Shown here: piece by piece, positions 445-25,981 of the stretch
Layout: the number at the start of each line of letters is the position of its first letter
Numbering within the stretch: position 1 is the first letter of the stretch
Assembly (NCBI RefSeq): GCF_028583425.1
Contig: NC_072801.1
Location: 64,805,766-64,869,765 of the forward strand
Direction: 5' to 3'
DNA: 64,000 bases
Source of the DNA: Eublepharis macularius
Taxonomy: Eukaryota; Chordata; Lepidosauria; Squamata; Eublepharidae
Made by a program: the position numbers and the translations under genes
Notes under the pieces: model-generated
The model's input: only the letters and a program-made list of their open reading frames with translations
The model's database searches: none
What the model was told of the DNA's origin: nothing

Positions 445-687
445 GGGGCCATTTTGTGGACAGACATCAGGAGGAGCTGATCGAACGAGTGACGGAGGTC
501 CCCCTGAACCAGCTTCGTGGGTTTGCACTGGATGAGGAGCAATATGAGACTCTCCTTCACTGCGCCACAGCCAAGATGCAGATGTTAGCCCTGTTCCAGA
601 TGGAGCAGAAGTGGAACAGGCAGCAGAAGGATCGACTGTACCGAGCGCTGGCAGAAACCAATCCAGATGTTATTAAAATTCTCGAGG
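445..687 (+). CDS. CARD exon 1 of FIIND-CARD gene
   Basis: This exon is 243 bp (81 codons), phase 1 at both ends, with acceptor TTTTCCCAG and donor GGTAAAT. It encodes one death-fold CARD: the opening GGHFVDRHQEELIERVTEV, a middle LDEEQYETLL, and the C-terminal W-N-R-Q-Q-K-D-R-L-Y-R-A-L helix. The order and spacing match the C-terminal CARD of NLRP1/CARD8, including the Leu-x-Glu-Glu-Gln-Tyr-Glu signature and the Trp followed by Lys-Asp-x-Leu-Tyr. It closely resembles the terminal CARD at 25.7 kb, so a tandem origin by exon duplication is likely. The frame runs past the donor to a stop at about 746, which is intronic read-through. A CARD mediates homotypic binding to ASC or caspase-1. Which partner this one binds cannot be told from sequence. 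Confidence 0.88.
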
Positions 688-1611
688 GTAAATCCAGAAG
701 CAGCTTTCTATACTGTGTCTTCATGAAGCTTGAATGTTTATTGTGAAGGAGAAAACACCATGTTTTGAATGAATTATCAGATTGGATCCATGGATGGACT
801 GCCATTTAACTTTAGGCCACTACTCTAGAGGGTCACCAGTGGCCCTGAGCAAACAGAACCCAGTCCCAGCAACTCCACCAGTGCCTCAGTGCCTCTGGGA
901 CCACTTTATTGGCTCAGACTGTTCCCTGGCAATGGCAGTTGGTGTCAGCTCATGTATTATCTCCTCCCACATGGCTGCCAGTTTACAGGAAGAAGCAGCG
1001 AGTGATCAAATACCCACTGCTAGATCTGCTTTCAGCAGAGCATCCCTGCATCACTAGCTTGTAGCACGGGAAGGATATTTCAACTTGCCTTCCTCCAGGG
1101 CAAATTTCACTTTCCACTCCTTTCTTATTGGGGTGGGGTAGGGGGTAGAAGTGAGGATGATCCACGATTCCTGTGGGTGTCATTCTCCATTGCTGGATTA
1201 CAGCCATACAGAATAAAGTTTGGTCAGTACTAGGGAAAAGAGAGAGAGTTTTGCTGCTTCTGAAGATTATTTCATTATGAGATACCTTAATTTGCTTTAT
1301 TGTTTAGGAAATATGCAGCATTTTTGTAACTTTTATTCGTAGCCTAGCAGAATTAAAAACAGCAGATTCCAGGACCTGTTCTGTTCCCCCCTTCCACCCA
1401 CCCCCCCACCCCGGGCCCCAGTTCTGCCTGATTGTGGTTTCCTCCTCTCTGGTGCTGCTGCACTGATAGTCGTATGCAGCAAAGAACAACATGGCATTCC
1501 CTTCGTCTCTTAAGGTTGCTTTTATCATTTTAATACACTAGAGGAGATCCTATCATGTGTCTCCTGGAGTTAAAGGTAATTTGGCACTAGGAAATTTGGC
1601 AGTAGTATGTA
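688..1611. other. Intron, no recognisable feature
   Basis: Intron after CARD 1. I see only short C-rich and A/T-rich runs and no convincing exon or repeat. Confidence 0.5.
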
Positions 1612-2445
1612 TTTATTTAAAACATTTGTATCTCACCTTTTCACCCAGTTAGGGCCTTCAAGGTGGTGGAAAATTAAAAAGACATTAAAATCAACTTTAA
1701 AACTGTATATGTATATAAAGCCAGAGATTAGACACAGAAAAGCATAAAACTGGAAGGGCTCCCCAAGGAGATTCACAGCAATTAAAAACAGACAGAAAGG
1801 TCAGGTAGATTTGAATGGGACCAGGTGATCCCTAAAGTATGCTGGTCCCAGGATGAATAGGGTTTTAAAGTCAATACCAGCAGCATCTTTAATTGGGCCT
1901 GGAAGCACATTGAAAGCCAGTGAAGACAGAACATGACTGGCATGATACGGTCCCCACAACCCACCCCAGACAGCACCCTCGCTGCAACGTTGAAGGGCAG
2001 CAGCAGCACGTAGAGAGCATTGCACTAATCCAGGGCTTTTTTTCTGGGAAAAGAGGTGGTGGAACTCAGTGGGTTGCCCTCGGCGAAAATGGTCACATGG
2101 CTGGTGGCCCCACCCCCTGATCTCCAGACAGAGGGGAGTTTAGATTGCCCTCTGTCTGGAGATCAGGGGGCAGGGCCACCAGCCATGTGACCATTTTCAA
2201 GAGGTTCCAGAACTCCGTTCGCCCGTGTTCCTGCTGAAAAGAAGCCCTGCACTAATCTAATAGGGATGATACCAGGTCATATATCAGAGTAGCAAAATCT
2301 TTCTTATATGGAAAAGGCTGCAGCCGGCTTACTAGCCAAAGCTGTTGAAAAGGACCCTGGCCAGTGCTGCTATCTGCTTATCCAACCGGAGCCTCCCTGC
2401 CCCCTCGACCCCGTACAACAGTAGCCCCAGGCTGCAAATCTGTTC
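1612..2445 (-). mobile_element. L2/CR1-type LINE 3' fragment, antisense
   Basis: On the minus strand LQRCSEGAVWGGLWGPYHAS and FNVLPGPIKDAAGIDFKTLF resemble the end of L2/CR1 ORF2. The tail (TTTAAAACATTTGTATCTCA on the + strand) is the 3' end. A hAT MITE (2031-2249) is inserted in it. Confidence 0.65.
2031..2249. mobile_element. hAT hairpin MITE, CAGGGCTTTTTT family
   Basis: Termini CAGGGCTTTTTTTCTGGG and the complement, with perfect 8-bp duplication CACTAATC (2023-2030, 2250-2257). The interior is palindromic around CTCCAGACAGAGGGGAGTTT. Confidence 0.92.
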
Positions 2446-2488
2446 CTTTAGATTGCAGTGATTGAGACTGTAATTTGTTTCATATCAG

Positions 2489-2716
2489 AGGAACATTTTA
2501 TTGAAAAGCACCGGGAGGAATTGATTCATCGAGCCTCCAGAGTTGATGCTATCTTACGTCGGCTCCAGGATCAACAGTCCCTGATGAAAGAGGGCTCAGA
2601 CCAGCAGAAAATGGAGCAGTTGTACACACAAGTGCCAAAGTGGAACAGGAAGCAGAAAGATTATCTGTACATGGTGCTGAAGACGACCAATGGACCCCTT
2701 GTTGCAGAAATGGAAG
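2489..2716 (+). CDS. CARD exon 2 of FIIND-CARD gene
   Basis: The exon is 228 bp, phase 1-1, with acceptor CATATCAG and donor GGTAAAAT. The product begins EEHFIEKHREELIHRASRVDA and ends with KWNRKQKDYLYMVLKTTNGP, a CARD of about 76 residues. It lacks the LDEEQYE loop seen in the first and last CARDs and instead reads LQDQQSLMKEGSDQQKMEQL, so it has diverged between helices 2 and 4. The symmetric phase lets this exon be gained or skipped without a frameshift. It lies about 1.8 kb downstream of CARD 1, after an intron filled by an antisense LINE tail and a hAT hairpin. Confidence 0.87.
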
Positions 2717-2932
2717 GTAAAATTACTACTTCTTAACTTAGAACTTTGAATTTGAAACTACTCCAGGGGCTTGGGCTGGAATAGATCTTGGGGCCTCAAA
2801 TAGGATTTCACTTGACCTGAAAGTGTTCTCAGACTTACGCTGCTTCTGCATCATTAGGGAACATCCATTGTTCCTGTGAAAACATAAACCTGCCCAGCTG
2901 GACTTACGTGTCTAACATCTCTCTTTTCTCAG

Positions 2933-3181
2933 AGGGGCACTTTGTTGAGAGGCACAAGAAAGAGTTGATTGAAAATGTCACTAAGGTACAAAGAGTGGCA
3001 CAATTACTGCTACGTTATATAAACTGTCGTCAATTGTATGTCAACATTGTGAAGAAGGATACAGACAAGGAACGAATGGAGATACTCTGCAACGTGGTGC
3101 CAAGCTGGAATGGGGTCTGGAAGAACCGTCTGTACCAAGAACTAAGGGCAACAAATGAACCCCTGATTAAGGAGCTTGAGG
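2933..3181 (+). CDS. CARD exon 3 of FIIND-CARD gene
   Basis: The exon is 249 bp (83 codons), phase 1-1, only 216 bp downstream of CARD 2. It has acceptor CTTTTCTCAG and donor GGTAAGTC. It encodes EGHFVERHKKELIENVTKVQ at the start and VPSWNGVWKNRLYQELRATN near the end. The Trp-Asn and Leu-Tyr-x-x-Leu positions of the CARD C-terminal helices are kept. The middle contains a basic segment (VKKDTDKERMEIL) with a few more residues than CARD 2. Together with exons 1 and 2 it makes a row of three CARDs upstream of the FIIND. That arrangement is not found in human NLRP1 or CARD8, which each carry one C-terminal CARD. Confidence 0.87.
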
Positions 3182-3523
3182 GTAAGTCAGTGGGCTGCAA
3201 TTCATTGCCAATGTTCCAAGTTCTTTGTTAATATATATTAAATAACCACATGAAATCGGAATTTAGAATACCATGCAAGTTGCTCAGTAGCAAAAATCAA
3301 ATCTCATGGTGAAGAGGAATGCAGAACGCTTCAATAATGATGTCATACAGAAAAAAATCAGTTTGATTCATCAATTAATGTGGAAGAGTCCAAATGACAT
3401 GCGACACTAAATATGTGTCCACCAGAGATGGGCTGCTAGGGTGGTGATGTGATGCTGGGATGTGAATGGGTTGGAATTAAAAAAACAACTGCTGCTGCTA
3501 TGGCCTTTGCCATGCGGTTACTA

Positions 3524-4004
3524 AGGGTCACTCTAAATGTTACTTGCTTCACGAGTTCCCTATGGAGTCAACCTGGGCTCCACACAGACACACAGCAGCT
3601 CTGGGGAACGGCTTCCATTAAAGAGAGAGAGAGAGAGAGAGAGACCAAATGGGCTCAGAAAGCTGCTGCCAGGGGAGGGAGGCCTCCTGCCTTCGTCCAA
3701 GCTTCCCCCCCCCCCCGTGCAAAAACAGTGAAGGGGGAGAGTTTTTCCATTTCTGCTGCTGCACGTGGAGGTATTGTGTGCAAGTGTGGCAGCAGAAACA
3801 GACCCCACCCCTGGCAGTGTATTTTACAGGGGGAAATGCTTCGGAGAAAGGCAAGAGCATTCCCTCCCCTGGAGGCAGCTTTCCAAGCCCATTTGGGCTC
3901 TCCTTTTTTATGTAAGCCGTTCCCCAGAGCTGCTGAGTGTCTGTACAGAGCCCAGGTTGGCTCCGTAGCAAACTCATGATGGAAGTAACATTTAGAGTGA
4001 CCCT
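3524..4004. mobile_element. TIR element with (GA)n interior
   Basis: Termini AGGGTCACTCTAAATGTTAC and the complement GTAACATTTAGAGTGACCCT, with longer inverted blocks (GCTCTGGGGAACGGCTTCC and complement). A (GA)n tract lies at 3621-3643. The overlapping open frames on both strands are by-products of this structure. No clear target duplication is seen. Confidence 0.7.
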
Positions 4005-4810
4005 AACACTTTAATTTGAGCCTAAGAAATACCATGAAGTAATAGTAGTGATGGTTTCTTCTGATAACATGATGTTTCTTTTGTAACTTTAATATGGGGG
4101 CTCCAACTAATATGGGCAGCCGAAGCTTGCTGCTTCAGGTTTTGGGCATTTCCAAATGTTTTCGGAATATTTTTGGGGTGTACACCCCTATTCATTAGAT
4201 TGGATTGGACTGGATTGGATTAGGAATTTCAGACTCTGAAATTTTGAGAAAGAATTTTGAAAAAAAAATGTCTACGCTGGCAGAGGGAATCTGTTAGAAT
4301 TCAGATTTGTGAGATGGGTTTCGGATGTTTAGAGCCCCCCTCCTTTTTGCATATTTTAAAATATGATTCCAAAGAAATGAAATGTTTGGGAAAGGGAATG
4401 GAAGATTTCACTTTTGGTAGAGGATACAGAAAAAACCCTTTCTCATAATAGTGTAATTTCCCAAGTTTACTACCATTTATCTCATCATGATGCATTGTGC
4501 TGGGTTCCGGGAAGCGGTGGCACTTCCAGGAGTGATGTCACTTCCAGGAGTGATGTGATCATACATTTCCGGGAGCAAGCACACGCACATGTGATAATAG
4601 AGAGTTCCACCACCTCTTTTCCCAGAACAAAAGCCATGGTGGGATGACCGGCATAGACATGATTTGGATAATTCTTGTGATGTTGCACCATGGGACAATT
4701 GATCAAAGAATTGGATTTCAGGGTTCCCAAGAAGTAAAGCATGCTCTGCTTGGTAAAGGGGAAATGGTGGCCCTTTCTGCTAAGATCTAATCTTTCTTCT
4801 TTTGATGTAG

Positions 4811-4887
4811 GTAGAAGAAGCAGTAAAGAGGGCTTGGTTCCTGACCCACTTGCAGAGGAGAAATGCTACTTGTGCCCAAAGGAGAAG
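4811..4887 (+). CDS. Linker exon between CARDs and FIIND
   Basis: This 77-bp exon follows TTTTGATGTAG and ends at GAGAAG|GTAAAG. It takes the frame from phase 1 to phase 0 and encodes G-R-R-S-S-K-E-G-L-V-P-D-P-L-A-E-E-K followed by CYLCPKEK. Nothing in the peptide identifies a domain. It may be a flexible linker, and the CxxC pair is too small to call a zinc site. It is placed in the model because its phases fit both neighbours and it sits between the CARD and FIIND exons. This is one of the weaker exons. Confidence 0.5.
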
Positions 4888-5578
4888 GTAAAGGTATTGC
4901 TCTTTGATGAGGGTAGGCTTTTCTGGATACTGAGTAGTTATTCTATATAAGAAACATTGCCTGGTTAAAGAAACCAAATAACCATCAGAACCAAGGTGTG
5001 TTGAAGTATATACCATCCCAATAGGGGAGATGTCCAAAGTTATCAGTAGCCACCCTGTCCCCAAGAAAGTGCCTCTGCCATCCTGGCTTCACTTGCTACT
5101 TTCTCCCTCCCCCAGGTGCACAGATGGAAAATTAAGGCTCAAAATAAATCATGATTTAGCATGTCACTGGAATTGCAAACTGTGGTTTCTTTCTTGCCAA
5201 CAAACTAGGATTCTAAATCACATTAGTGGTTTGTTCATCATACACGAATGCAGCCAGAACCTGTAAGCCAAGACTCTTGTAGGAATTTAGCTTCAGCTGT
5301 AAGAGCAATGGGTTTTAATCTTCTAACAACCATTGGAAAATGTGTATATCTTGCATTTAGGGTAGATTGATGTCCCAAGAAAAATTTCCATGTATGTAGG
5401 AATAAAAAATGTCCCACGAAGGCTGTCTCTCTCCACAGCATGTTCCCTGCATCACTTTTATTAATAAACTCATGGGAGGGTGGAATACTCCAATGGCAAA
5501 AAGGATTTTTATTTCTTACCACAGTTGCTTTTTTGTTTACAGAAAGTAATCTGTAAGTGGCTGTACTTTAGAGACATT

Positions 5579-5645
5579 GAGCCAAGCCACATGTGACAAA
5601 TTACACTTGCCAGGCAAGTGTCATTTGTCACTTGTGGCTTGGCTC
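5579..5645. mobile_element. 67-bp hairpin MITE
   Basis: Arms GAGCCAAGCCACATGTGACA and the complement TGTGGCTTGGCTC pair over about 31 of 33 positions, with 3-bp flanks ATT/ATT. This is the smallest member of the GAGCCAAGC family. A transcript would fold into a near-perfect stem. Confidence 0.75.
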
Positions 5646-5739
5646 ATTGTCACCTGTATGGTAGTAAACAATGTCCTAAGATTAAAAAGTTCTAAAGCTG
5701 CGTTTCCTCTGTATTCTACCCAAAGAAGCAAACTGATCT

Positions 5740-6965
5740 AGCTAGTTCACACCAAGGGTAATTTGAAAGGTTTTAATCTTCTCTGCTTAGTTAATGGCCA
5801 TGTCTTTCTCCAGTGCAAAGATACTTCCTTAATGCAGGAGGCTCTTCCTCTGATGTTAGAGAAAGATTCCTTGTGTTGGTGGAAAGCACCACAATAACTG
5901 AGCAGAGTGGTTGTATGCAACTCACCGTGTCCCCTGTGCTCTTCAACATCTACATGAAACTTCTGGGTGAGATTATTGGGAGATTTGTATTGTTTTGTCA
6001 CCACTATGTGGATGACATGCAGTTCTATTTCGAGCTGCTGGCTGATTCCAGTGAAGCTGTAGAAACTCTGAACCAGTTCTTGGAGGCAGTTACCGAGTGG
6101 ATGTGGGCTAATAAACTGAAGTCTAATCCTGACAAGATGGAAATGCTATTGGAGGCCGGAAGATCTGAACCAGGATTTAAGGTGTCACCTGTTCTGTTTG
6201 GGATTGCACTCCCCTTGAAGGAACTGGTCTGTAGTTTGGAAGTGCTCTTGGATCCAGACCTGTTGCTTCCTAAGTAGAGTGGAGCTTTGGCCAGAGGTAC
6301 CTTTTACCAGTTTCAGCTGGTTAGCCAACTGTGGCCTTTTATGGGTGGAAAAGATCTGCCCACTGAGGTACATGCACTCTTTGTGGGGCTGCCCTTGAGA
6401 AGTGTCTGGAAACTTCAGTTGGTGCAGAATGCTGCAGCCAGGATGTTAACTGGAGTGGGTCATATGGACCATATCACCCCCGTCATGGCCCATCCGTGCT
6501 GGCTCCCAGTCTGTTTCTAGGGACAATTCAAGGAGCTGGTATTGACCTTTAAAGCCTTACATGGCTTGGGAACACCTAATCCCGTATGAACCTACTCAAC
6601 CATGGCAGTCATCTTCTAAGGCCTTGCTTTGGGTGCCCCCACCTTCTGAGAAGGCCCCCTTAACCATGACACCAAAACTGTCAAACTCCCTCCCAGGGAG
6701 ACTCTGCTGTCCCTTTTCTGTTGCCATCTTCGGCCGGAAGGAGAGGACTTGTTTTATTTGGTATTCCCCCAGTAATCCTCCTCCCTGCCAAATTTTTTAA
6801 CTGGTTTTAGTTTTAACTTTGGTTTTGTTTCATTGATGTGTGGGGTTTTAATGGTTTTTACAATGTGATTTTATTATGCATATTTTTAATCTGTTAGCTG
6901 CCTTGGCGGCCCTAATGAGGGCAGAAAGGCTGAGTGTATGGTAAATTTTGTAAATAAATAATAAA
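5740..6965 (+). mobile_element. L2/CR1-clade LINE 3' portion, sense
   Basis: A broken RT frame (5813-6277) contains SPVLFNIYMKLLGEIIGRFV and the active site Y-V-D-D followed by QFYF, then LEAVTEWMWANKLKSNPDKM. Further on come LQLVQNAAARMLTGVG and the HITPVM...CWLPVCF block. It ends with GCTGCCTTGGCGGCCCTAAT and an AAATAAATAATAAAAG tail typical of L2/CR1-type LINEs. Frame breaks make it inactive. It lies in the intron between the linker exons. Confidence 0.8.
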
Positions 6966-7237
6966 AGTAAAGTCCTTGATCCAGTGCTTTAAAGTAATAA
7001 TGATAAGAATATCCACGTTATATCCCACCTCCCAGTCTTCTTACCCTTTATTAGTATAATATGGATGGATTAGCTACAAACTCCAGTGGGAGGCTCTGCT
7101 GTTCAGAGATATGGAATTCAGTCGGCCATTATGATTGGGAGTGCTGGAAGTATGATTGGATCCAGAGTTTCAAAGATCCTCGTGGATTCCAAAACCAAGT
7201 CCTGGCCACTTCTTAAAGTAATCTCTTGTTCTCCAGG

Positions 7238-7298
7238 GTTTTCCAGTGGTTCAACCTGAATTCATTCCAGATGCTGAAGGGAAACTGAAGACATACAG
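7238..7298 (+). CDS. Short exon leading into the FIIND
   Basis: The exon follows TTGTTCTCCAG and ends at ACATACAG|GTGAGG. It encodes GFPVVQPEFIPDAEGKLKTY, ending in phase 2. The next exon supplies the base completing the Arg codon. The Pro-Glu-Phe-x-Pro run resembles the segment just before the ZU5-like half of FIIND in NLRP1/CARD8. My base count is uncertain by one here, so the exact frame should be checked. It lies about 270 bp beyond the sense-strand LINE that fills the preceding intron. Confidence 0.55.
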
Positions 7299-8173
7299 GT
7301 GAGGATCTAGGATAGCCGTCATGGAGCCACTGAGAACCTTTAGCCAGAATTTTCTTTTGGAGATCAAAGTGCAGCACCCGTGATCTTCTGTCTAATCTCT
7401 TCCAACTACCATTGGTATGTTGTCAATGTATCAAATATGCCCTCAGAATGAGGTACGTATAAATACTTCAAAATAGCCCCTCCAACGGTTGGGAGAGCCA
7501 GGAGGCTGGCACATTGCCAGGGGGAGACTTGGAATGCTACTGGTGCCCGGATGCCTCAGAGGGCAAGGTGGGACGAAACTCATGGGTCAGGGGGGCTGTT
7601 TTCTCTGCATCATGTAGAACAACCCTGTACGGACCTCTGAGGCATCTGGGCACCACTTGCTGCCCAGCTTCCATCTGGCAAATGCCACTCACCTGGCTCC
7701 CCCAACCCTCAGAGGGGATTTTCTCTCTTCCTTTTTGTATTTCACCCCACCACTTGGTCTTTGTAGGAAAGGCCCAGCAAGAGGGCCAAGTTTCCCAGCC
7801 CCCCTGCATTGGCTTGTCGCCTTAAGGCCTTGCCTCGTGCCTGAATCTCCTGCTTGCAGTCCTTGCCCACAGGAGGAGAATCAGCAGTTTGCCAACAGAC
7901 CTCCTCCTGGTGTGCCCATTTTAAAATAGGATGTTCGAGCAGTGGAAGCCTATGCGGTACAACAGAGAACCCAAACAGAAAGCAGTGAAGGTGGTGTTGG
8001 GGAGCAAAGAAGAAAGAATGAAGAGAGGAAAAGATCTCTGAGGGCAACTATCTTCTGTCTTTTGTTAGCTATCTTCTAGTCCTCTATCAGTGCATTCTGT
8101 ACGGAGCTACACTCGTCTTAGTCCATTGAAGTGTAGAGCCTGGCCTAACTATATCTGACTCTGACTCAGATAG

Positions 8174-9617: not shown

Positions 9618-9841
9618 AATTCGGCTGCCCGGGGCTGGCATTTTCTTTTGCTCGGTAACTGAGCTCAAGTTTGAAGTGAGGGCAGCCGTGACTGTCAAAT
9701 ATACATACGGCTCCTGGGATGAGCACCTGAGCGAGGCTGAGATGCAGACATGGGTGGTGGCTGGTCCGTTGTTTGACATTCATGCAGATCCAGCAGGGGA
9801 GGTGGCAGCTGTTCACCTCCCTCATTTTATATGTCTTCAAG
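9618..9841 (+). CDS. FIIND exon 1 (ZU5-like half)
   Basis: The exon is 224 bp, from acceptor GACATTACAG to donor AAGGTAAGG, taking phase 2 to phase 1. It encodes IRLPGAGIFFCSVTELKFEV, then AVTVKYTYGSW, WVVAGPLFDIHADP and AVHLPHFICLQ. These are the hallmark blocks of the FIIND ZU5 subdomain: the Trp-x-Val-Ala-Gly-Pro-Leu-x-Asp-Ile motif and the Ala-Val-His-Leu-Pro-His-Phe motif are both present. Together with the next exon it forms the part that stays non-covalently attached after autocleavage. No stop or frameshift is visible. Confidence 0.93.
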
Positions 9842-10172
9842 GTAAGGCAGCTTTGAGGCAATAAGGCAATTCTAGGCTGCTTCGATGTTGTATCAGTTCA
9901 CTGTGGAGCTTGCATTGCTGCTGCAATGAAATCTCCATAGTGAATGGAGGTGCCTTCCACATGGAGTTTTGGTCCATCTTTTCTCTTCAATTGCAGAAGG
10001 GGGTGCTTCCACATGACACCATGCTCATCCCGAGCATCATGTATGTGGCTCCTGGGACTTTTCCTTTTGACCAGGAGCAATAAAATACATCGTCTTTGGG
10101 GTTTGGAAAATTTGGAACAAGGCAAAGGGGAAACCTGGATAGTGAATAATTAGGGGGAGCATCATGTGTATG

Positions 10173-11477: not shown

Positions 11478-11490
11478 CATCATGTGTATG

Positions 11491-12474: not shown

Positions 12475-12725
12475 AGGGAAAGACTGACATCTCCCAGATG
12501 AAAATTGCCCATATTGTTGAAGCTGGGATGGCTCTGGAGGCACCGTCACGGGTGACCCAGTTCCATGCGGTGCTGGAGAACCCCCAGTTCTCTCTTCTGG
12601 GTGTGCTGCTGAAACCCCTCCAGAGGTTCATCCCCATCCACTCCGTGGTGCTGCTCTATCAGACCTGCAGGAGGACTGTGACCCTTCACCTCTATCTGGT
12701 TCCCAATGATTCTTCCTTGACAAAG
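12475..12725 (+). CDS. FIIND exon 2 with autocleavage site and start of UPA
   Basis: The exon is 251 bp, between TTGTTCACAG and GTGGGT, phase 1 to phase 0. It completes ZU5 (EGKTDISQMKIAHIVEAGMA) and begins UPA (GVLLKPLQRFIPIHSVVLLY). The junction reads HAVLENPQF|SLLGVLL, so the Phe-Ser bond cleaved in NLRP1/CARD8 is conserved (Phe codon 12588-12590, Ser codon 12591-12593). A His eight codons before that Phe (12564-12566) lies at the position of the histidine needed for FIIND autoproteolysis in the family. The sequence therefore predicts a cleavage-competent FIIND. The residue after Ser is Leu where mammals usually have Pro, which changes the new N-terminus of the freed UPA-CARD fragment. Confidence 0.94.
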
Positions 12726-13646: not shown

Positions 13647-14149
13647 TTTTAAACTATACGTCTCGGCTAACATTGCATCTCCTTTCACTTGAGCATCCTC
13701 GAGTAGGGATGTGCGTTTCGGCATTCAGAATGCCGAAAGAATGCCGAAACAAAAGTGTTTCGGCTTCTTTCGGGGAATGCCGAAACGTTTCGGGGAATGC
13801 CGAAACGTTTCGGGTAGCCGAAAGAAAAAAGCCGAAACGTTTCGGGATTCTTTCGGCTTTCTTTCAGCTTTTCTATGGGAAAATGCCTCCGTCTTCCAGG
13901 ACGTCTGGAGGAGGCATTTTCCCACCGAATAAGCCCAAAATTGGTGGGGACCTTCCTCTAACCCTTCTCTAACAACCACCCAAGTTTCAGGCAGATTGGA
14001 CTTTGGGGGGCCATGTTATGGCCCCCCAAAGCAGGTCCCCCCATCCTCCCATAAGAAAGCGAAGGAGCAGCATATTGTTAGCATGCTGCTGCTGATCTTT
14101 CTTCATTATTTCCTATGGGGAAAAAATGAAGAGGCAGGCTTCCTTTGCC

Positions 14150-14640
14150 AGGGGTGGCATTTTGCATGCAAAATGCCCCCCAGCCCTCAGGGGCCCTTCT
14201 CCCACCCCTCCTCCCACCCCCCACCAAGGCTCAGCCTGCTTCCACTTGGGGGGGCCATTTCATGGCCTCCCCAAGTAGGTGCTCTAATCTCTACCACTGA
14301 CAGCTGGGGGAGGCTTGTGTTGCCAGGGGTGGCATTTTGCATGCAAAATGCCCCCCAACCCTCTGGGGCCCTTCTCCCACCCCTCCTCCCACCCCCCACC
14401 AAGGCTCAGCCTGCTCCCACTTGGGGGGGCATTTCATGGCCTCCCCAAGTAGATGCTCTGCTCTCATCTCTACCACTGACAGCTGGGGGAGGCTTGTGTT
14501 GCCAGGGGTGGCATTTTGCATGCAAAATGCCCCCCAGCCCTCTGGGGCCCTTCTCCCACCCTTCCTCCCACCCCCCACCAAGGCTCAGACTGCTCCCACT
14601 TGGGGGGGCCATTTCATGGCCTCCCCAAGTAGGTCCTCTC
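14150..14640. repeat. Tandem ~175-bp units in left arm of fold-back element
   Basis: There are three units, each containing GGCATTTTGCATGCAAAATG followed by a CCCCCAGCCCTC-type run and CACTTGGGGGG. The mirrored array lies at about 16375-16870. Confidence 0.88.
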
Positions 14641-15150
14641 AGCCCCTAAAGTCCACCCCTTACAGCCCCACACAAACCCAATTCCCCCCCAGCTGCCACA
14701 CACAGACCCAAATCCCCACATTAGCCCCTCACAGACCCAAATCCACCCCCACCTGCCCCACACCCATAACCCCAGGAACAGGCTGGCAAAGGCCAGCCCT
14801 CTCCCTTTGTTCCCTATGCTGGGAACTTCTAAACTCTCTTTCCCTGGGCAATTCTGCACAGCCCAGGGGTGCCACAATGGTGGGCACACTTCTGAGTGCC
14901 AGCTGGTCCCTGTGAAAGAGCACCTGAACCACAGACACCCTCCCTCAAATTCCCCCACCACCTACAGAGATGGCTGGCCAGCCAGCCCCATTGTTCCCTA
15001 TGATGGGAACCAACTGCACAACAAAGAATAAAACAAGAACAACACAAAATAAAGTTTTAAAAAAATTATTTTCTCCCTTCCAAAGTACAAGTAGGCAAAG
15101 CATTATGACACATTACACCAGCAGTCCCCCACACAGAAAAATTAAAACAA

Positions 15151-15548
15151 AACTCACTTAACATCAGAGAATCACAAAGCATGATTCCTGTCAAAAACAC
15201 TTTATTTCTTGAACAGCTTTAGGTTACACAGCAGGGGGGAACACCAAAGGGCATGGCAGCACTATCTTACACAAAAATAACACAACTCACTTAACATCAG
15301 AGAATCACAAAGCACAATTCCTGTTAAAAACACTTTATTTCTTGAACAGCTTTAGGTTACACAGCAGGGGGGAACACCAAAGGGCATGGCAGCACTATCT
15401 TACACAAAAATAACACAACTCACTTAACATCAGAGAATCACAAAAACACAATTCCTGGCAAAAACACTTTATTTCTTGAACAGCTTTAGGTTACACAGTA
15501 GGAGGGCACAACAGGGCATGATAGCAATGTACTGCAAAAAATAATACA
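15151..15548. repeat. Tandem ~133-bp units near the fold-back centre
   Basis: There are three successive copies starting AACTCACTTAACATCAGAGA at about 15151, 15284 and 15417. One mirrored copy lies on the other side (about 15720-15850), so the arms differ in copy number. Confidence 0.85.
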
Positions 15549-17474
15549 ACCCACTTCATCGTTTTTGACAGCAATTGTGTTTGTGTGATTCTCTGATGTG
15601 AAGTGAGTTGTGTTATTTTTGTGTAGTACACTGCTTTCCTGCTCTGTGGTGCCTTCCTAAAGCAGTTACAGAAATAAAGTGCTTTTGACAGCAATTTTTT
15701 GGGGTGATTCTTTAATGTGAAGCGAGTTGTGTTATTTTTGTGTAAGATAGTGCTGCCATGCCCTTTGGTGTTCCCCCCTGCTGTGTAACCTAAAGCTGTT
15801 CAAGAAATAAAGTGTTTTTGACAGGAATCATGCTTTGTGATTCTCTGATGTTAAGTGAGTTTTGTTTTAATTTTTCTGTGTGGGGGACTGCTGGTGTAAT
15901 GTGTCATAATGCTTTGCCTACTTGTACTTTGGAAGGGAGAATATAATTTTTTTAAAACTTTATTTTGTGTTGTTCTTGTTTTATTCTTTGTTGTGCAGTT
16001 GGTTCCCATCATAGGGAACAATGGGGCTGGCTGGCCAGCCATCTCTGTAGGTGGTGGGGGAATTTGAGGGAGGGTGTCTGTGGTTCAGGTGCTCTTTCAC
16101 AGGGACCAGCTGGCACTCAGAAGTGTGTCCACCATTGTGGCACCCCTGGGCTGTGCAGAATTGCCCAGGGAAAGAGAGTTTAGAAGTTCCCAGCATAGGG
16201 AACAAAGGGAGAGGGCTGGCCTTTGCCAGCCTGTTCCTGGGGTTATGGGTGTAGGGCAGGTGGGGGTGGATTTGGGTCTGTGAGGGGCTAATGTGGGGAT
16301 TTGGGTCTGTGTGTGGCAGCTGGGGGGGGAATTGGGTTTGTGTGGGGCTGTAAGGGGTGGACTTTAGGGGCTGAGAGGACCTACTTGGGGAAGCCATGAA
16401 ATGGCCCCCCCAAGTGGGAGCAGTCTGAGCCTTGGTGGGGGGTGGGAGGAAGGGTGGGAGAAGGGCCCCAGAGGGCTGGGGGGCATTTTGCATGCAAAAT
16501 GCCACCCCTGGCAACACAAGCCTCCCCCAGCTGTCAGTGGTAGAGATGAGAGCAGAGCATCTACTTGGGGAGGCCATGAAATGCCCCCCCCAAGTGGGAG
16601 CAGGCTGAGCCTTGGTGGGGGGTGGGAGGAGGGGTGGGAGAAGGGCCCCAGAGGGTTGGGGGGCATTTTGCATGCAAAATGCCACCCCTGGCAACACAAG
16701 CCTCCCCCAGCTGTCAGTGGTAGAGATTAGAGCACCTACTTGGGGAGGCCATGAAATGGCCCCCCCCAAGTGGGAGCAGGCTGAGCCTTGGTGGGGGGTG
16801 GGAGGAGGGGTGGGAGAAGGGCCCCTGAGGGCTGGGGGGCATTTTGCATGCAAAATGCCACCCCTGGCAAAGGAAGCCTGCCTCTTCATTTTTTCCCCAT
16901 AGGAAATAATGAAGAAAGATCAGCAGCAGCATGCTAACAATATGCTGCTCCTTCGCTTTCTTATGGGAGGATGGGGGGACCTGCTTTGGGGGGCCATAAC
17001 ATGGCCCCCCAAAGTCCAATCTGTCTGAAACTTGGGTGGTTGTTAGAGAAGGGTTAGAGGAAGGTCCCCACCAATTTTGGGCTTATTAGGGGGGAAAATG
17101 CCTCCTCCAGGCGTCCTGAAAGACGGAGGCATTTTCCCAAAAAAAAAACCCGAAAGAATGCCGAAATAATGCCGAAAGAATCCCGAATCCCGAATCCCGA
17201 AAGAGATTCTTGTTTCGGCTTTCGGCTTTAACGGTAGACAATCTTGTTTCGGGTAATCCCGAAACAAGAAAGCCGAAAGTTTTTTCCTTGCACACCCCTA
17301 TCCTCGAGTATCGTGTAGAGTGACTCTAAGCAGGGGTGGCCATGATCCGTACTTGCCTTGGAAACCCCATGAGGTAGGGTTGCATAATTGGCTGTGACTT
17401 GGAGGATCCGAGTTGCTTGACTTCATTTCCCCCATATCAACATTGACAGTACCGTCCCTTTTCACTCTAAACAG

Positions 17475-17603
17475 GCCATCGAAGATCGTGAGAAAAGCCG
17501 GCGCTCCGTGCTGGTGGATAAACACCCTCAAACGGATGAGCCCTTGTACTATGGCTCTCGGTACATTGTCTTCAGCTCAGCAGAACTCCGGATAAACCCA
17601 TTG
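17475..17603 (+). CDS. FIIND exon 3 (UPA)
   Basis: The exon is 129 bp (43 codons, phase 0-0), with acceptor CTAAACAG and donor GTTAGT. It encodes AIEDREKSRRSVLVDKHPQT followed by DEPLYYGSRYIVFSSAELRI. It matches the UPA segment Ala-Ile-x-Asp...Pro-Leu-Tyr-x-Gly-x-Arg-Tyr of NLRP1/CARD8. It begins about 170 bp after the end of the large fold-back element at 13704-17300, so the exon itself is not disrupted. Confidence 0.88.
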
Positions 17604-17631
17604 GTTAGTAGTCACATCAGATGTAAGATTT

Positions 17632-18444: not shown

Positions 18445-19784
18445 TTAGACTGAGGTGGAAGAAAACATTTTTTGAAGCTGCCTTAACTTGCTTCTCTAGC
18501 AGGAATGCTGAATCCAGTATAACTCCTATAACCTTTTGGTTGCGTCTGCAAGGGTCAAACAGATGCCATCAAAAGTGCAGAGTACAATGCCCTGCAAGGT
18601 CTCTGCCCTCCCAACCAGCATCACTTCCATCTTGTCTGGGTTCAGTTTTAATTTGTGCACTTTCAGCCATTTGACTACAGCTGTCAGACAGACAGCAACC
18701 CAAGATCTCTACTGCGTTCAGTGGTGATTTGGATAGTGAGACAGTAAGACATATTGCTGGGTGTCATCTGCATATTTGACAGCATCCAATTCCATAGCTA
18801 CGAATGAGTTCTCCTAAAGGCTTTCTATAGAGGTTGAATAACAAGGCCTCAGCAGCAGGAGGCAGGCTAGGCAGTGGCTCCTGGATCCTAGCTACCACCA
18901 TCTTCCCAGCCAAGGCTCCAGAGCAGCCCCTTTCCTCAGCCTATGGGAAGCTCAGAAGCCCAACCAGAGGGAGAGGATGCAGGAGGCAGAGACAGCCAGC
19001 CAGTGCCACCACAAGCAGCAGACCGAGGGCAGCGCAGGCGGCACCAGTCCACACTCCCACACAGAGGGAGGCAGGAGAAGTTCAGCAGCACAGCAAACCA
19101 GCAGGCAGGCCAGAGGGGGTGGGAAATAGCTAGAAGAGGCGGGCAGCAGAGCGACCACAGGTGTGACTACCTAGGGCAGCCAGGGCAATGACTAGGTTGT
19201 TGGGGGTGGGAAGAAGAGCTGGAGGCTGGGAATGATGAAGGGATAAAAGGGAAAGCAGAGGTGGAGAGGAAGGAGTTTGGAGGAGAGTACAGAACGAGTT
19301 CAGAGCATAGCCAAGAGAGTAGTGAGGGGCATCTCCGCGGCACACTCTTTCCCTGAGGCCCAGGTCACCCATCTAGGGCCTGCCTGGTCAACGATGCTAC
19401 AGCTGAACCCGCCAAGGCAGGGCCAGAGCAGGGTGAAGCCTCACAGAAGCTGATGGACAACAGGCTTAGGATGGACAAAAGGAAATGCTTCTCTACTGTA
19501 TAATTCACTGCTAGTAGACATAGTGGTAGCCGCAAGCATAGATGGCTTTAAAAGGGGGTTAAACAGATTCATGGATTATTTATGTAAATGAAATCTACTT
19601 TAGAGGGGGGCAGGTATCATCAGTATCACTGCTTCGGACCTGAGGAAGTCCAGAAATATGGGGGAGGGAAAGGTATGCACAGTTAGATCATGGGGGCCTC
19701 TTTGCTCATGACTGGCAGAATAAATTATGCTACATAAACCAAGTTTGTGTGTGTGTGTACACATACATATACTTAAGTTATATA

Positions 19785-20148
19785 TGGTTGTTGTGGATTT
19801 TCCGGGCTGTATGGCCGTGGTCTTGGCATTGTAGTTCCTGACGTTTCGCCAGCAGCTGTGGCTGGCATCTTCAGAGGTGTAGCACCAAAAGACAGAGATC
19901 TCTCAGTGTCACAGTGTGGAAAAGGTGTTGGCAGGTCATTTATATCTACTCAGGAGGGGTGGGGTTGGGCTGAGTCGTCCTGTAAGCGTTTCCCAGGGTG
20001 TGGAATGCTAATGGAGGGAGGCTTCACTGTATCCTGAGGAGGTTCTTTTGCATCTGGATTGGTGCTTGATATGCTAATCTTCTCTGCAGGGCTATTGTTG
20101 GGTATAGAGTGTTTTGATAGCCTAATGTTTTTCAGGACTGGTTTCCAT
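19785..20148 (-). mobile_element. Penelope-like terminal fragment
   Basis: GGTTGTTGTGGATTTTCCGG and the following about 350 bp match the terminal region of the element at 10173. No coding part is seen. It is absent from duplication copy 2, inside the deleted part. Confidence 0.75.
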
Positions 20149-20966
20149 GCCGCAGAAAAAGCGCTATTCTGGGCAGTGGATGAGCTCGCCTCACAGCTGA
20201 CAAAAGCACCTTCCCACCCATTGTGCCTGGTTTTTTAAAACAGGAATCCAGATTTGCTCGATATTGCTCTTTCTATATTGGAAGACTGAACCTCCCCTCC
20301 CCAACGGTTGGCTGTATTTTTTGCCCACCAATTTACTTTAAAAGACATTGGTGGATCAAAGGTTAACAGTGGGGAGAACCTTGGGAGACAGTGATCTCAA
20401 AATGGCACGCGCATGCGCAGCAAACCACTGCCAGCCAGTACGTTCCCACTCAAAACCCAGTTTGCTTTTCAATGAATTTGTGGGATTGAGCGGTCATAAT
20501 TTTTTTTTTAAGCAAACAGTCTAGGGTTGTTCTGTTATTTGCAATGCGTAACTTTAGCATAAAACATTTAATGTCCTTGGTTTTTAAAAGTTGGTTGTTA
20601 GGGCAGTCTTTCTAAACAAGACATTGCAATATCGCAACAAAGGTGTCCTTTTAAAAAAACTTTAGGCATAACTGTCGCCAGGAGTCCACAGAGGCTTGCA
20701 GGATTCCTGGTTGTGGGTGGGAAAATCTCTTCCTAGGGAGTAGAAACTGAGAAAGGAGGAGGGGTTGAGAGGGCAGTCTCTGGAGAAGCGTTTCCAAGCA
20801 TTCTCATGCATGCGAAAAAAGTGCTAAAAACGCATTGCATAGTGGAATAAATGGGAAATCTACGTTCTTGAATAAATTACAACAATGACAAAGGGGGTTT
20901 TCACGGGTGGATTATGAGGGTGTGTGTACAGCTGTGAGTATAGCGGAACAATTACAATACTGTGGC

Positions 20967-21226
20967 CAGGGCTTTTTTTCAGTGGGAACGCAGTGGAACG
21001 GAGTTCCGGAACCTCTTGAAAATGGTCACATGGCTGGTGGCCCCGCCCCCTGATCTCCGGACAGAGGGGAGTTTAGATTGTTCTCCGCGCCGCCAAGCAG
21101 CACGGAGGGCAATCTAAGCTCCCCTCTGTCTGGAGATCAGGGGGCAGGGCCACCAGCCATGTGACCATTTTCTCCGAGGGCAACCCACTGAGTTCCACCA
21201 CTTCTGTTCCCAGGAAAAAAGCCCTG
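20967..21226. mobile_element. hAT hairpin MITE, CAGGGCTTTTTT family
   Basis: Same family. Flanks ACTGTGGC and ATTGTGGC form an 8-bp duplication with one mismatch. It lies 300 bp before the last UPA exon. Confidence 0.88.
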
Positions 21227-21310
21227 ATTGTGGCACTAAAATAAGGATGTGTGGAAACGGCCCATATGTTTTAAACAACCAAGTTTTAAGCATGATATTT
21301 ACTAAAACCA

Positions 21311-21480
21311 TTGTGTGTGTGTGTGTAAAGTGCCATCAAGTCACAACTGACTTATGGCGACCCCTGCTGGGGCTTTCAAGGCAAGTGAGAAGCAGAGGTG
21401 GTTTGCCATTGCCTTCCTCTGCAGAGTCTTCCTTGGTGGTCTCCCATCCAAGTACTGACCCTGCTTAGCTTCCTTTGGCT
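21311..21480 (-). mobile_element. GT microsatellite and antisense 5S-like SINE
   Basis: A (GT)n run at 21313-21327 is followed by the complement of the same SINE family: GGTGGTTTGCCATTGCC, then CTCCCATCCAAGTACTGACC and CCTGCTTAGCTTC. Confidence 0.65.
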
Positions 21481-21527
21481 CCAAGCCATCCCCCCACTGA
21501 CATGGCTCCTTTCTACTTCTTTATTAG

Positions 21528-21666
21528 GAATTGGAATTTTCCTATAAGAATCCAGGACAACTGCAATCCTTTGTGGATATCTACCTTGGAAAAATAGAAA
21601 GAATAAACCTCAGTTTGAAAAAGAAGGAAGGTCTTTTCTCTATCTGGGATGCTTGGCTAGAATCAG
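21528..21666 (+). CDS. FIIND exon 4 (end of UPA)
   Basis: The exon is 139 bp, from acceptor TTTATTAG to donor GGTACAC, phase 0 to 1. It encodes ELEFSYKNPGQLQSFVDIYL and ends in LFSIWDAWLESG. This corresponds to the UPA C-terminus (Glu-Leu-Glu-x-x-Tyr and the Trp-x-Ala-x-x strand). It lies between two hAT hairpins (20967-21226 and 21875-22172). This exon is absent from the downstream duplicate because of a 2.8-kb deletion there. Confidence 0.85.
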
Positions 21667-21874
21667 GTACACACGATGTTATATTTTTTGAGTAGATGTA
21701 GCCTATCAGGAAGAAAATTGTGTGAGCAATTTGTTGCATAATGACGGCCTGAAAGGAAAGATGACATCAAACTTTCTCAGTTTATAAAGATTTTACTGCC
21801 TAGTAACTCTGGATGAAAACACCTGGCTCTGTACACACCTGCTGCTCTTGATGAGACAGATTAATTGCTACACT

Positions 21875-22172
21875 CAGGGCTTTTTTTTCTGGGAAAAGAG
21901 GTGGTAGAACGCAAGACTGCACAATGACATCACTTTGGGTCAGTTGGAACAACGGGGGAGTTTTTTAAAGTTTAAATCGCCCTTGGCAAAAATGGTCACA
22001 TGGCCGGTGGCCCCACCCCCTGATCTTCAGACAGAGGGGAGTTTAGTGGCGCACAGGGCAATCTAAACTCCCCTCTGTCTGGAGATCAGGGGGCGGGGCC
22101 ACCAGCCATGTGACCATTTTTAAGAGGTGCCAGAACTCCCTTCCACCACATTCCCAATGAAAAAAAGCCCTG
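21875..22172. mobile_element. hAT hairpin MITE, CAGGGCTTTTTT family
   Basis: Same family, with a perfect 8-bp duplication GCTACACT (21867-21874, 22173-22180). Confidence 0.9.
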
Positions 22173-22442
22173 GCTACACTAACTTTACAAGTACTTTCCA
22201 ATCCACCATGGTAAAAAGGAAAGGGAAATTCTGCCCTGAAGCATGCTGACACGTTTTGTGAAGTGGGGAAGAATTGTGCAGTGAGAGCAAAGTTGGCCAT
22301 ACAGGGTTTGATGAGAAGCTGGTTTTGTTTTAAAGAAATTGAAAAAAGAGGAAACAACAAATATTGTCTTTCTTGCTCTGTCATTTTCCCTCTCTTCTTG
22401 AGATGAAAACGCACAATTCATTTTTCTTTTGTTTCATTCTAG

Positions 22443-22505
22443 AGGATATCCTGGTTCAAGAGGAACATCAGGTGTCTAACAGAGAAATCAGAGAGGAAGA
22501 AAGAG
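22443..22505 (+). CDS. Linker exon between UPA and CARD (a)
   Basis: The exon is 63 bp (21 codons), phase 1-1, with acceptor CATTCTAG and donor GGTACT. It encodes an acidic peptide EDILVQEEHQVSNREIREEE. It is placed here because its phases fit the UPA exon before and the next linker exon after. In the duplicate the upstream half, including the acceptor, is deleted (junction at about 45803), so only this copy can be spliced. There is no recognisable domain. Confidence 0.6.
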
Positions 22506-23229
22506 GTACTCAGAAAATATTCTAAGGGTGCGGCCTCTGTGTACAAATCCAGGCAGTGGAGATAATATACCAGGGTCTTTGAGCACTTGAAATTAAGAAT
22601 TACAAACTGACCTTCTTCCTCCAATAAAAATTAATACTGTACATTCCAAAATATCATGGCACAGTGGAGCAAATAATGAAGATGCCCGTTGGCACTTGTG
22701 CAAGGATAGTGCACACTGTGTTGATAAAAATTATGTTCTCTGTGGGAGAATACTGCATGTCATTTACAAGTTATTGTAGGCTCATTTATTTACAAAATTT
22801 GCAAGCCAATTTTTCAAGGATCTAATTGGGCAGTACAACACAAGGTCTAATTTAAAATGTCTAATTTAATCCACATCACCAGCCTTAAACGTTAGAGAGC
22901 GAGTGGATGGTGGTGGCACTCTGCTGCATGCATTTTCCAAAGCGGTTTCTAGAACACCAAAAATAAAATGAAATCGGAGCCCTCGCCGTTCCTCAGAATT
23001 CCAAACAACTAGCTGAAGACCCCAGTCACAGGGCAGAAATAATTGTGAGCTAGGGCTTTTTTTTTTGCTACGTTTGGCTCCTTACCTCATCAGGTTTTCT
23101 TCCGAATTCTGGACATTTAACTCCAGAATTCGGAAGTAAAAAAGGCCTTGAACATCCGGAATGACTACTGAAGATCTCTGGCTTTGCCCATCAAAGTTTC
23201 ACCTATCCACTTCTCCGATTCTCTCCTAG

Positions 23230-23319
23230 CGGACCTGCACCTCAGCCTTCAAACACTTTCCATAAGAAGTGATACCAACTCTCAAACAGAATCGATTCCT
23301 GTATCTTCCATTGCAGAAG
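23230..23319 (+). CDS. Linker exon between UPA and CARD (b)
   Basis: The exon is 90 bp (30 codons), phase 1-1, with acceptor TCTCTCCTAG and donor GGTAATG. It encodes ADLHLSLQTLSIRSDTNSQT then ESIPVSSIAE, a Ser/Thr-rich stretch typical of a flexible linker before a CARD. It is supported by phase and splice sites only. The segment is missing from the downstream duplicate, where 22860-23361 is deleted. Confidence 0.5.
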
Positions 23320-24369
23320 GTAATGAAAGATGGATATAAATCCAGATAGAATAAGAATGCACCAAGCGCCTCAAACACAGCAACCCGTCATCCCCCCAAC
23401 CGTTAAGCAAGCCTGCCCTTTTGTGCCCTAATTCATAAGACGCTTATTATTCTCGCCCTCATTTTATGAATCTGTGTACAACGCAGTATACAGTTTACAT
23501 ATATCACATCATAAGGAAATAACAGAACCGATGATTGGATCAGACTAGTTGAGCTGGGAGAAGTCCATTTTTTAAACAGATGCTGGAGTCTCCCCATCCC
23601 AAAGCTAAATGCAGCAAGAAGGCAAAGACATCAAGAGTGCTTGCAAAAGTAAAAGCGCATGTTAAGGGCATAAAGCCGTTTGAGGAAATGCTTGAATAAT
23701 GGGGGACAGCAACAACGTAAACATTCCAGAAGGGATTTTAAAGAACAGTGAAGGCGTTATGAGTGGACTAAAAGCTCACCTTATAATGAAGCAGAATGAA
23801 ACAATTAACAGCACCGAGTGGATCTTACAATAGGAACAGGATAATTTAAGAAGAGTGAGGGTTGGGGCTGGGAACCAAACTCTTGGATTCTGTCCTTAGA
23901 GAACATCTGACACAAGCATACAACACACAATTTGTGATCCAAGCTGGGTAGAATCCACAGCCTATGTGATGTGGCACTTGGGTCTGTTAGTTACACACCA
24001 TTTTTACAAACCAAGAGATTATTGAGGTTATCAAGCCCTTGTTCTGCCATACACGGTAGTTGGGTTGATGCTGTTCAACTGGAAAAGTTGTGCAGGTTGC
24101 AGCCAGAAACGAGAGATAGTGGCAAGTGGAAACTGAATAGTTCCTAATTCATTTGAAGTGTCAGTCTGGTAAACATAAGAGGAATGTAAAAGAGCACATA
24201 TCTTTGCCAAGCAAACACTCTTAGCTGTTCAGATCTAGGAAGAGCAGTTGCATCTCTTCTAGTGGTATAACTACCTCTACTTCTGACTGCTAAATCTGGA
24301 TTATGAATTAGCTTTACTTTGTTTTTCATATTTAGATACAAGAGATCAGGAGGAGACAATGGTGACAAC

Positions 24370-24612
24370 CAGAGCTTTTTTCTGGGTGGTGGAACTCAGT
24401 GGGTTGCCCTCGGAGAAAATGGTCACATGGCTGGTGGCCCCACCCCCTGATCTCCAGACAGAGGGGAGTTTAGATTGCCCTCCTCGTGGTGTTGAGGACA
24501 ATCTAAACTCTCCTCTGTCTGGAGATCAGGGGGCGGGGCCACCAGCCATGTGACCATTTTCAAGGCATTCCGGAACTCCGTTCCACCGAGTTCCCGTGTT
24601 CCAGCTTCTCGG
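24370..24612. mobile_element. hAT hairpin MITE, degenerate ends (copy 1)
   Basis: The left end is CAGAGCTTTTTTCTGG and the right end is eroded (CCAGCTTCTCGG). The interior palindrome is that of the CAGGGCTTTTTT family. It is repeated in the duplicate at 47243-47485, so it predates the duplication. Confidence 0.75.
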
Positions 24613-24938
24613 AGACTGTCAAACTGCAAATGGCCAGGAAGCCAGCTAACTCAGTGCTAACTAGCTGTTGTGTCTCACTTCAGCTATGGAGGGTTTTTGT
24701 AGCTTACTCTCATTCAACTTTTTTGGTATGGAGACCCACTCGGAAAAAAGAAAAGAAAAAACACTGAGCAGATGCAAATCGATAAACCTGCAAAAGCTTG
24801 GGACGCACTTTCACAGACTTCACTACCTCCTTTTGGGTCAGGACTTACAGGTTGGAAAACACTGGTTTACACAATTCGCTTAGCTTAGCTACCACTTTAA
24901 CTGTCATGGCTTCCCTCAATGAAATCTGGAACTGTAGG

Positions 24939-25556
24939 GCCGATTCCAGATGGGCATAAATAGAGCGAGTGCTTTCACTTTTTCAGCAACCTCACTCGTA
25001 AAAACCCGCAATTTCCCGTCCCGGCTTACCTGCGGTCCATGGCGCTTGGTTGCGCTCTATAAGCGGACGGTGTGAACGCGGTATTGCGGGTTTGCACACT
25101 TCTGGACGCTTCGTCGCCACGGAGAGGCCCTCCCCTTTCCCTCCTTCCTTTGCCGGCCGGCAACAATATTCCCTTAATTTTTTTTTTAAACCGGGCGCCA
25201 TTTGCGCAGTCGCACGTTTGCGCACATCAAACTGCGCAAATGTGCACAAATGCACAAAAGCGCACAAATGTCGACGCTGCGTATTCGCATACCTGCGCGT
25301 TTGCGCATTTGCGCAAAACACATAAAAAATTTTTTTTAAAAAAACGAAATGCGAACCAATGAAGGCCCCCGACGTCAACTGTGACGGGGAGGAAACAACC
25401 AATCCCGGGTACCTCAGTTGGCCGTGCGAACATTCGGAAGCGGGACGGCACGGCACGCTGCGAGACAAAGCGGATGGAGATGAAAGTGAACGCATGGCTG
25501 GTAAGCGATTATTTCCGCAGAAAAACCTCAATTTCTGGCCATCTGGAATCGGCATA
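24939..25556. mobile_element. TIR element with alternating GCGCA repeats (copy 1)
   Basis: Termini GCCGATTCCAGATGG and the complement CCATCTGGAATCGGC. The middle (25203-25318) repeats TTTGCGCA/TGCGCAAA and GCACAAATG motifs. Open frames here with repeated Cys/Ala are repeat artefacts. It lies in the last intron. Duplicated at about 47813-48430. Confidence 0.7.
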
Positions 25557-25700
25557 GGTTGCTGAGTTGCTAAGAAATCTGTTAGATCCCTTGGAGAATT
25601 ACACTCCCTAATGCTCAGGGGATAAAGACATACCTGAAAAAGCCGTTTAAGCCTGCCGTGGCATGGATGAGTTCTTAGACTTCAGTTCTTTCTCTGGCAG

Positions 25701-25981
25701 GGAGGCAGGCGGCCTTCACACCGGAGCCTCATTTCATTGAGCAGCACCGGCAGCAGCTGATCCAGAGGACAGCCACAGTGGAGGGAGTTCTGGATTTGTT
25801 GTATGGAGTTGTCCTGGATGAAGAGCAATACGAAAGAATCTCTTCAAGGGGATCCAACAAAGAAAAAATGCGGGAGCTGTACAGGCTGGTGCCGAGCTGG
25901 AATCTCTCTTGTAAGGATCAGCTGTACGAGGCACTGAAGAAGAACAATCCATTCCTCATAGCAGACCTTGAAGGGCGATGA
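25701..25981 (+). CDS. Terminal CARD exon with stop codon
   Basis: The exon follows TCTCTGGCAG in phase 1 and runs to TGA at 25979-25981. It encodes GRQAAFTPEPHFIEQHRQQL, VVLDEEQYERISS, then LYRLVPSWNLSCKDQLYEAL and ends IADLEGR. This is the C-terminal CARD of the FIIND-CARD family, in which the CARD freed with UPA nucleates ASC/caspase-1 filaments. The Leu-Asp-Glu-Glu-Gln-Tyr-Glu and Trp-Asn...Lys-Asp-Gln-Leu-Tyr motifs are intact. A second copy at 48575-48855 differs in this exon by one silent base that I could see (ACA to ACG). Confidence 0.93.

Follow-up and report, generated by a model that had tools for sequence, protein, structure and literature searches.

A predicted leopard gecko gene that joins an array of CARDs to an NLRP1/CARD8-like FIIND and C-terminal CARD

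Within a window of 64,000 nucleotides from the leopard gecko genome (Eublepharis macularius, assembly GCF_028583425.1, NC_072801.1:64,805,766-64,869,765, forward strand), we find twelve coding exons that belong to one gene, LOC129339545. From its sequence, the architecture of this gene is near certain: a PYD, six CARDs, a Cys-rich linker, a FIIND (made up of ZU5 and UPA) and a final CARD. The gene is real and conserved, and is an apparently new variation on the NLRP1/CARD8 kind. The sequence of its product, like those of its relatives, is already in NCBI as an uncharacterised prediction, and among the top-ranked matches of full-text searches, with most subscription journals outside their range, no title or abstract dealt with reptile CARDs upstream of a FIIND or with a p53-FIIND protein. 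With moderate confidence we regard the product as a functional-degradation sensor resembling NLRP1 and CARD8, in which the upstream CARDs would be non-signalling sensing modules, most likely baits.

The exon chain and its predicted protein

All twelve exons lie on the plus strand between positions 445 and 25981, are open, and have canonical splice sites with compatible phases throughout. The 677 residues that they give when spliced are identical, letter for letter, to residues 531–1207 of the predicted leopard gecko protein LOC129339545 (here P0121), and chance is therefore excluded for the exon chain. P0121 is predicted to contain a PYD (residues 181–266), six CARDs (268–769), a FIIND (799–929), a UPA (930–1064) and a CARD (1124–1205), so the CARDs in the window are the last three of its six upstream ones, whereas the PYD and the three CARDs that follow it are left of the window and known from the predicted protein alone. 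Residues 1–180 look repeat-derived when judged by eye, and the true start of the protein may be nearer the PYD, as it is in the Gekko kuhli protein P0123. An earlier note on this DNA had proposed three CARD exons, a FIIND and the usual C-terminal CARD in a phase-consistent model, and all four CARD exons were recovered at their positions by Pfam, by splice phases and by the identity to P0121. The order of CARDs and FIIND in that model also stood, but it missed one exon (4811–4887), and the first FIIND exon is 7237–7298. Similarly, its count of three extra CARDs holds for the window, but P0121 raises the total to six, behind a PYD.

The three upstream CARD exons all have phase 1-1. Numbered by their distance from the FIIND, they are m3 (exon a, 445–687; Pfam CARD E 6.3e-9), m2 (exon b, 2489–2716; E 3.5e-4, 21.0 bits) and m1, which adjoins the FIIND (exon c, 2933–3181; E 1.5e-3, 19.0 bits). 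Exons b and c fall under the Pfam CARD cut-off of 23.9 bits and are marginal by Pfam alone; a profile built here, which has the window's own CARDs among its seeds, recovers both (E 2.1e-27 and 2.3e-29). The best AlphaFold model of exon c had a predicted local distance difference test score (pLDDT) of 85.8 and a predicted template modelling score (pTM) of 0.74, the four other models having a pLDDT of only 52–63. In a Foldseek search with the exon c model the top solved structure was the NLRP1 CARD filament (template modelling (TM) score 0.91, root-mean-square deviation (rmsd) 1.4 Å). Structure searching also related the fold of exon c to the CARD of a zebrafish GBP-NLRP1-like protein (PDB ID: 4irl), in which FIIND-CARD is joined to a different N-terminal module, a GTPase, and not to a CARD array.

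Between the CARDs and the FIIND lies a Cys-rich bridging exon (4811–4887, phase 1-0), which was found by tblastn with the homologues P0002, P0003 and P0005 (E 0.004 to 1e-5) and is part of the gene model; in relatives, too, a short stretch rich in Cys connects the last upstream CARD to the FIIND. The FIIND itself is encoded by exon 1 (7237–7298, phase 0-2; tblastn and gene model), exon 2, which holds the ZU5 part (9618–9841; PF13553 E 4.9e-29), and exon 3 (12475–12725; PF13553 E 8.4e-13, UPA-FIIND E 3.8e-7), the last carrying the catalytic His, the F/S cleavage site and the start of the UPA. Two UPA exons (17475–17603 and 21528–21666, both from tblastn and the gene model) are followed by two linker exons (22443–22505 and 23230–23319, both from the match to P0121) and by the exon of the C-terminal, effector CARD with its stop codon (25701–25981; Pfam CARD E 3.3e-17). 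An apparent in-frame stop in the UPA, within a tblastn match at 21504–21668, was rejected, the TAG being the end of the intron before the exon at 21528.

Three findings contradict the possibility that the exons at 445–3181 are an upstream gene of their own: the bridging exon, the identity to a single predicted protein, and the recurrence of this order in 30 of 129 homologues. Because the upstream CARDs and the FIIND join in one predicted gene, CARDs lie on both sides of the F/S site, which is conserved in sequence, and on this point the earlier note was right. A related account is that the upstream exons are used mainly in transcripts without the FIIND and so yield a free CARD decoy, a pattern into which the proteins P0021, P0059 and P0107, predicted with CARDs and without a FIIND, would fit. 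P0059 and P0107 are, however, unverified models from Gekko kuhli, and the bridging exon with its relatives, the joined model P0121 and the 30 joined homologues make this account very improbable. The locus does contain retroelements and is in part duplicated in tandem (see below), yet it is barely credible that the gene is dead or that the chain is an artefact made of exons with no relation to one another: the twelve exons are open, properly bounded and in phase, and their order recurs in other species.

Domain order among homologues and the surfaces of the CARDs

We collected 129 homologues, all of them gene predictions (120 of the 133 proteins in one set were used). Thirty of these (13 squamate, 16 turtle and 1 alligator) have one or more CARDs ahead of the FIIND, a number that includes isoforms and paralogues of single species and does not amount to 30 independent cases. 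The order had been marked in the earlier note as one to seek in other squamates, and the 13 predicted squamate proteins that have it come from Eublepharis, Gekko, Tiliqua, Elgaria and Liasis. In none of the bird or mammal proteins of this collection does a CARD precede the FIIND. Several of the multi-CARD predictions from turtles and alligator end in a PYD and not a CARD, and a PYD also takes the place of the C-terminal CARD in P0005 and P0006 of Tiliqua and P0008 of Elgaria. The maximum among the 30 is ten upstream CARDs, in P0123, which like the other Gekko kuhli models is unverified. Precomputed Pfam matches place a ubiquitin domain (PF00240) in many bird FIIND proteins and C2H2 zinc fingers in some turtle ones. 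Since these bird and turtle domains, a PYD, CARD arrays and a p53-like domain (described below) are all found before the FIIND, this slot accepts various modules.

A tree of 141 CARDs was built with FastTree and with IQ-TREE, the latter giving ultrafast bootstrap values (UFboot). The squamate CARDs at each of the three positions in the window form a clade with no foreign members: 12 sequences for m1 (FastTree 0.997, UFboot 100), 13 for m2 (0.992 and 92) and 14 for m3 (1.0 and 100). Each clade contains geckos, a skink (Tiliqua) and a snake (Liasis), with Elgaria also present in m1 and m2, and the upstream CARDs of turtles and alligator fall outside all three. Geckos are generally held to have split early from the other squamates sampled here, and if they did, the tree suggests that the fixed order of the upstream CARDs is as old as that split. 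Upstream and C-terminal CARDs separate weakly (0.688; UFboot 59), and the first CARD of Tiliqua clusters among the squamate C-terminal CARDs.

The residues needed for autocleavage are widely kept: the F and S of the cleavage site are present in 30/30 multi-CARD proteins and the His in 28/30, with P0121 having all three. Passages of one study of NLRP1 and CARD8 report that mutation of this His abolished autocleavage and that the FS motif is essential (PMC8081665). As a FIIND-UPA-CARD sensor should, P0121 ends in a CARD that comes after FIIND and UPA and has the filament residues, and it carries the His and F/S residues.

The upstream CARDs present a different picture. Signalling by NLRP1 is compromised by mutation at R1392, E1397, D1401, E1411, E1414 and R1427, according to passages of PMC7794386, and we compared the charge class at these six critical positions across the CARDs. 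In these figures, which are descriptive as related sequences count as separate cells, it is kept in 82 of 96 cells from 16 C-terminal CARDs vs 106 of 330 from 58 squamate upstream CARDs. At 15 other charged positions the corresponding counts are 121/224 and 365/793 (343/667 for turtle and alligator upstream CARDs), and the hydrophobic core is kept in 411/416 C-terminal, 1315/1445 squamate upstream and 1135/1253 turtle and alligator upstream cells. When only sites conserved to at least 0.8 in the C-terminal CARDs are considered, mean retention in the squamate upstream CARDs is 0.36 for six interface sites vs 0.72 for five control sites, both means being computed from rounded per-position values. 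The charge counts omit the Eub334X2 and X3 isoform rows, human NLRP1 (the reference) and, from both sets, Tiliqua m5, which clusters with the C-terminal CARDs; gap cells are omitted from the retention counts and scored as different in the comparison of the type I residues. Within P0121, the last CARD has 6/6 critical charges, and m1 to m6 have 0, 2, 3, 3, 3 and 3, those of m3 being R1392, E1411 and E1414. The charges of the type I pair are the other way round in m1, where E replaces R1427 in 12/12 sequences, and K or R replaces E1397 in 9 out of 11 with a residue there (Q in P0121, N in Tiliqua). Such a reversal could keep the FIIND-adjacent CARD insulated from the effector CARD, or suit a partner of its own.

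The squamate upstream CARDs retain the fold without the filament surface, which makes NLRP1-type signalling by them unlikely. They might still be active as a signalling scaffold that recruits CARD partners other than ASC, so that the two cleaved halves would signal differently; the tandem CARDs of RIG-I, for instance, recruit MAVS. This would fit the kept fold, seen both in the hydrophobic core and in the structural match to the NLRP1 CARD, and the type I pair of m1, being reversed and not merely lost, could suit another partner. We nevertheless consider a scaffold unlikely, given that the NLRP1-type filament residues are mostly gone, most of all in m1. The earlier note had left decoy, scaffold and sensor roles side by side, and the residue patterns favour the first and last of these and disfavour the signalling scaffold. 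Another alternative is an intramolecular cap, in which the upstream CARDs bind one face of the protein's own C-terminal CARD and prevent its activity for as long as the N-terminal half is in place. They would be on the half that is still bound after cleavage, and some of their faces are partly retained, for instance in m3 of P0121, but most upstream CARDs lack the type I residues and m1 has them reversed, which leaves a cap distinctly improbable.

A putative degradation sensor and its p53-like neighbour

The reading that we prefer, a sensor with upstream CARDs as non-signalling modules, follows the example of NLRP1 and CARD8, for which functional degradation is established (PMC8591160). By this analogy the FIIND would cut itself at F/S, and the N-terminal half, with the PYD, the six CARDs and ZU5, would remain bound and restrain UPA-CARD. 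Removal of that half by the proteasome would free UPA-CARD, which would then assemble and recruit ASC or caspase-1. Functional degradation is likely to operate in this protein in the same way. After cleavage the CARD array would sit on the inhibitory half as exposed sensing modules, and our best guess from the residue patterns is that these CARDs are baits, which would either mimic signalling CARDs or bear cleavage or ubiquitin sites.

Several observations count against this reading. Arg replaces the catalytic His in two multi-CARD proteins, P0016 and P0019. Speaking against an unchanged effector half, the human NLRP1 pair PP1278-1279 in the UPA, the mutation of which blocked UPA oligomerisation and ASC specks (passages of PMC7794362), is H-P in P0121; P0122, the product of the neighbouring gene described below, has P-P there. 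The 55 upstream CARDs from turtles and alligator keep 144/289 critical charges, and the loss is thus not general. Only 0.31 of the C-terminal CARDs retain E1414, and the three proteins mentioned above were predicted with CARDs and without a FIIND.

Among known systems, human CARD8 shares with P0121 the FIIND-UPA-CARD end and the F/S cleavage site, and neither NACHT nor LRR appears in the precomputed Pfam list for P0121, the DNA of whose N-terminal half lies outside the window. CARD8 differs in having a disordered N-terminus and a single C-terminal CARD, where P0121 has seven CARDs and a PYD. Mammalian NLRP1 resembles P0121 in starting with a PYD and ending in FIIND-UPA-CARD, and the C-terminal CARD of P0121 has all six of its critical charges, but NLRP1 has NACHT and LRR in contrast to the CARD array of P0121. 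Its order is given, in part of a review of fish NLRs, as PYD if present, NACHT, LRR, FIIND and CARD (PMC12436146). The turtle and alligator multi-CARD predictions share with P0121 several CARDs before FIIND-UPA, though these CARDs lie outside the squamate clades.

A similar protein is predicted from the next gene, LOC129338333, which starts on the plus strand with an ATG first exon at 61920–62111 encoding 64 residues, identical to residues 1–64 of the predicted protein P0122. P0122 is like P0121 in having six CARDs, FIIND, UPA and CARD, but it starts with a p53-like domain where P0121 starts with a PYD. Residues 38–228 match the core of mouse p53 (E 3.6e-51, 47% identity). In this domain R248 is changed to H, R273 to W, R280 to L and H179 to E, and C176, C238 and C242 are kept; we take R248, R273 and R280 to be DNA contacts of p53, and C176, H179, C238 and C242 to be its zinc ligands. 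None of the four gecko copies (P0122, P0021, P0059 and P0107, two of them partial) retains R248 or R280, whereas P0021 and P0059 still have R273. By sequence the domain thus appears to belong to the p53 family and to have lost its DNA contacts. Matches to p53 were found in 4 of the 129 homologues, all geckos, and a homologue search with the p53 region of P0122 gave 2 among 685 candidates (P0122 and P0021), normal-length p53 proteins being outside its length limits. The AlphaFold model of P0122 reaches a block pLDDT of 70–96 in the CARD regions and is poor in the p53 part; structural matches to p53 rest on that weak part and were not used for the fold. Its pTM of 0.34 makes the model uninformative on domain packing.

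A wider and more tentative idea, which we regard as possible without thinking it probable, is that squamate FIIND proteins are integrated-decoy inflammasomes, with CARD arrays that mimic host signalling CARDs and a gecko p53-like domain that mimics p53. If this were true, a pathogen factor aimed at host CARD proteins or p53, whether it cuts, binds or degrades them, would strip off the N-terminal half instead and release UPA-CARD; inflammatory cell death would then be a direct readout of an attack on p53. NLRP1 and CARD8 are known with a single CARD each, at the C-terminal end; a design with several of them on the inhibitory half, shared by squamates at large, would demonstrate that the sensing part of such sensors can be exchanged. 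It also provides natural variants for asking whether death-fold domains act as baits, and the p53-like neighbour makes the guarding of p53 by an inflammasome testable.

Other features of the locus

Part of the locus is duplicated in tandem, with 18445–30076 and 44616–53753 being 96–99% identical. The duplication does not include the FIIND exons and most of the UPA exons, and it provides a second copy of the last CARD exon at 48575–48855, in which the acceptor and stop are kept, 1 of 281 bases is changed and the protein is unchanged. Candidate explanations for this copy are an orphan exon, an alternative last exon or an effect of assembly. The intron between FIIND exon 3 and UPA exon 1 holds an inverted repeat (13840–15465 and 15561–17177) with arms of 1.6 kb that are 96% alike and separated by about 95 bases, and which contain sub-repeats of about 175 bases.

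A retroelement on the plus strand (33742–38834) encodes a reverse transcriptase (PF00078 E 6.6e-25) and has an upstream frame that is weakly LAP2alpha-like (24.1 bits, cut-off 25), features that a DIRS-like element would fit. Frames resembling long interspersed nuclear elements lie at 39390–42726 (plus strand; reverse transcriptase PF00078 E 1.8e-35 in 40059–41561) and at 58213–58989 (minus strand), the latter piece matching 42001–42546 at 76%. Two Rfam matches to 5S ribosomal RNA (28953–29069 and 52630–52746, both on the plus strand; 38.2 bits with a threshold of 38) lie within the duplicated segment, and are perhaps 5S-derived repeats.

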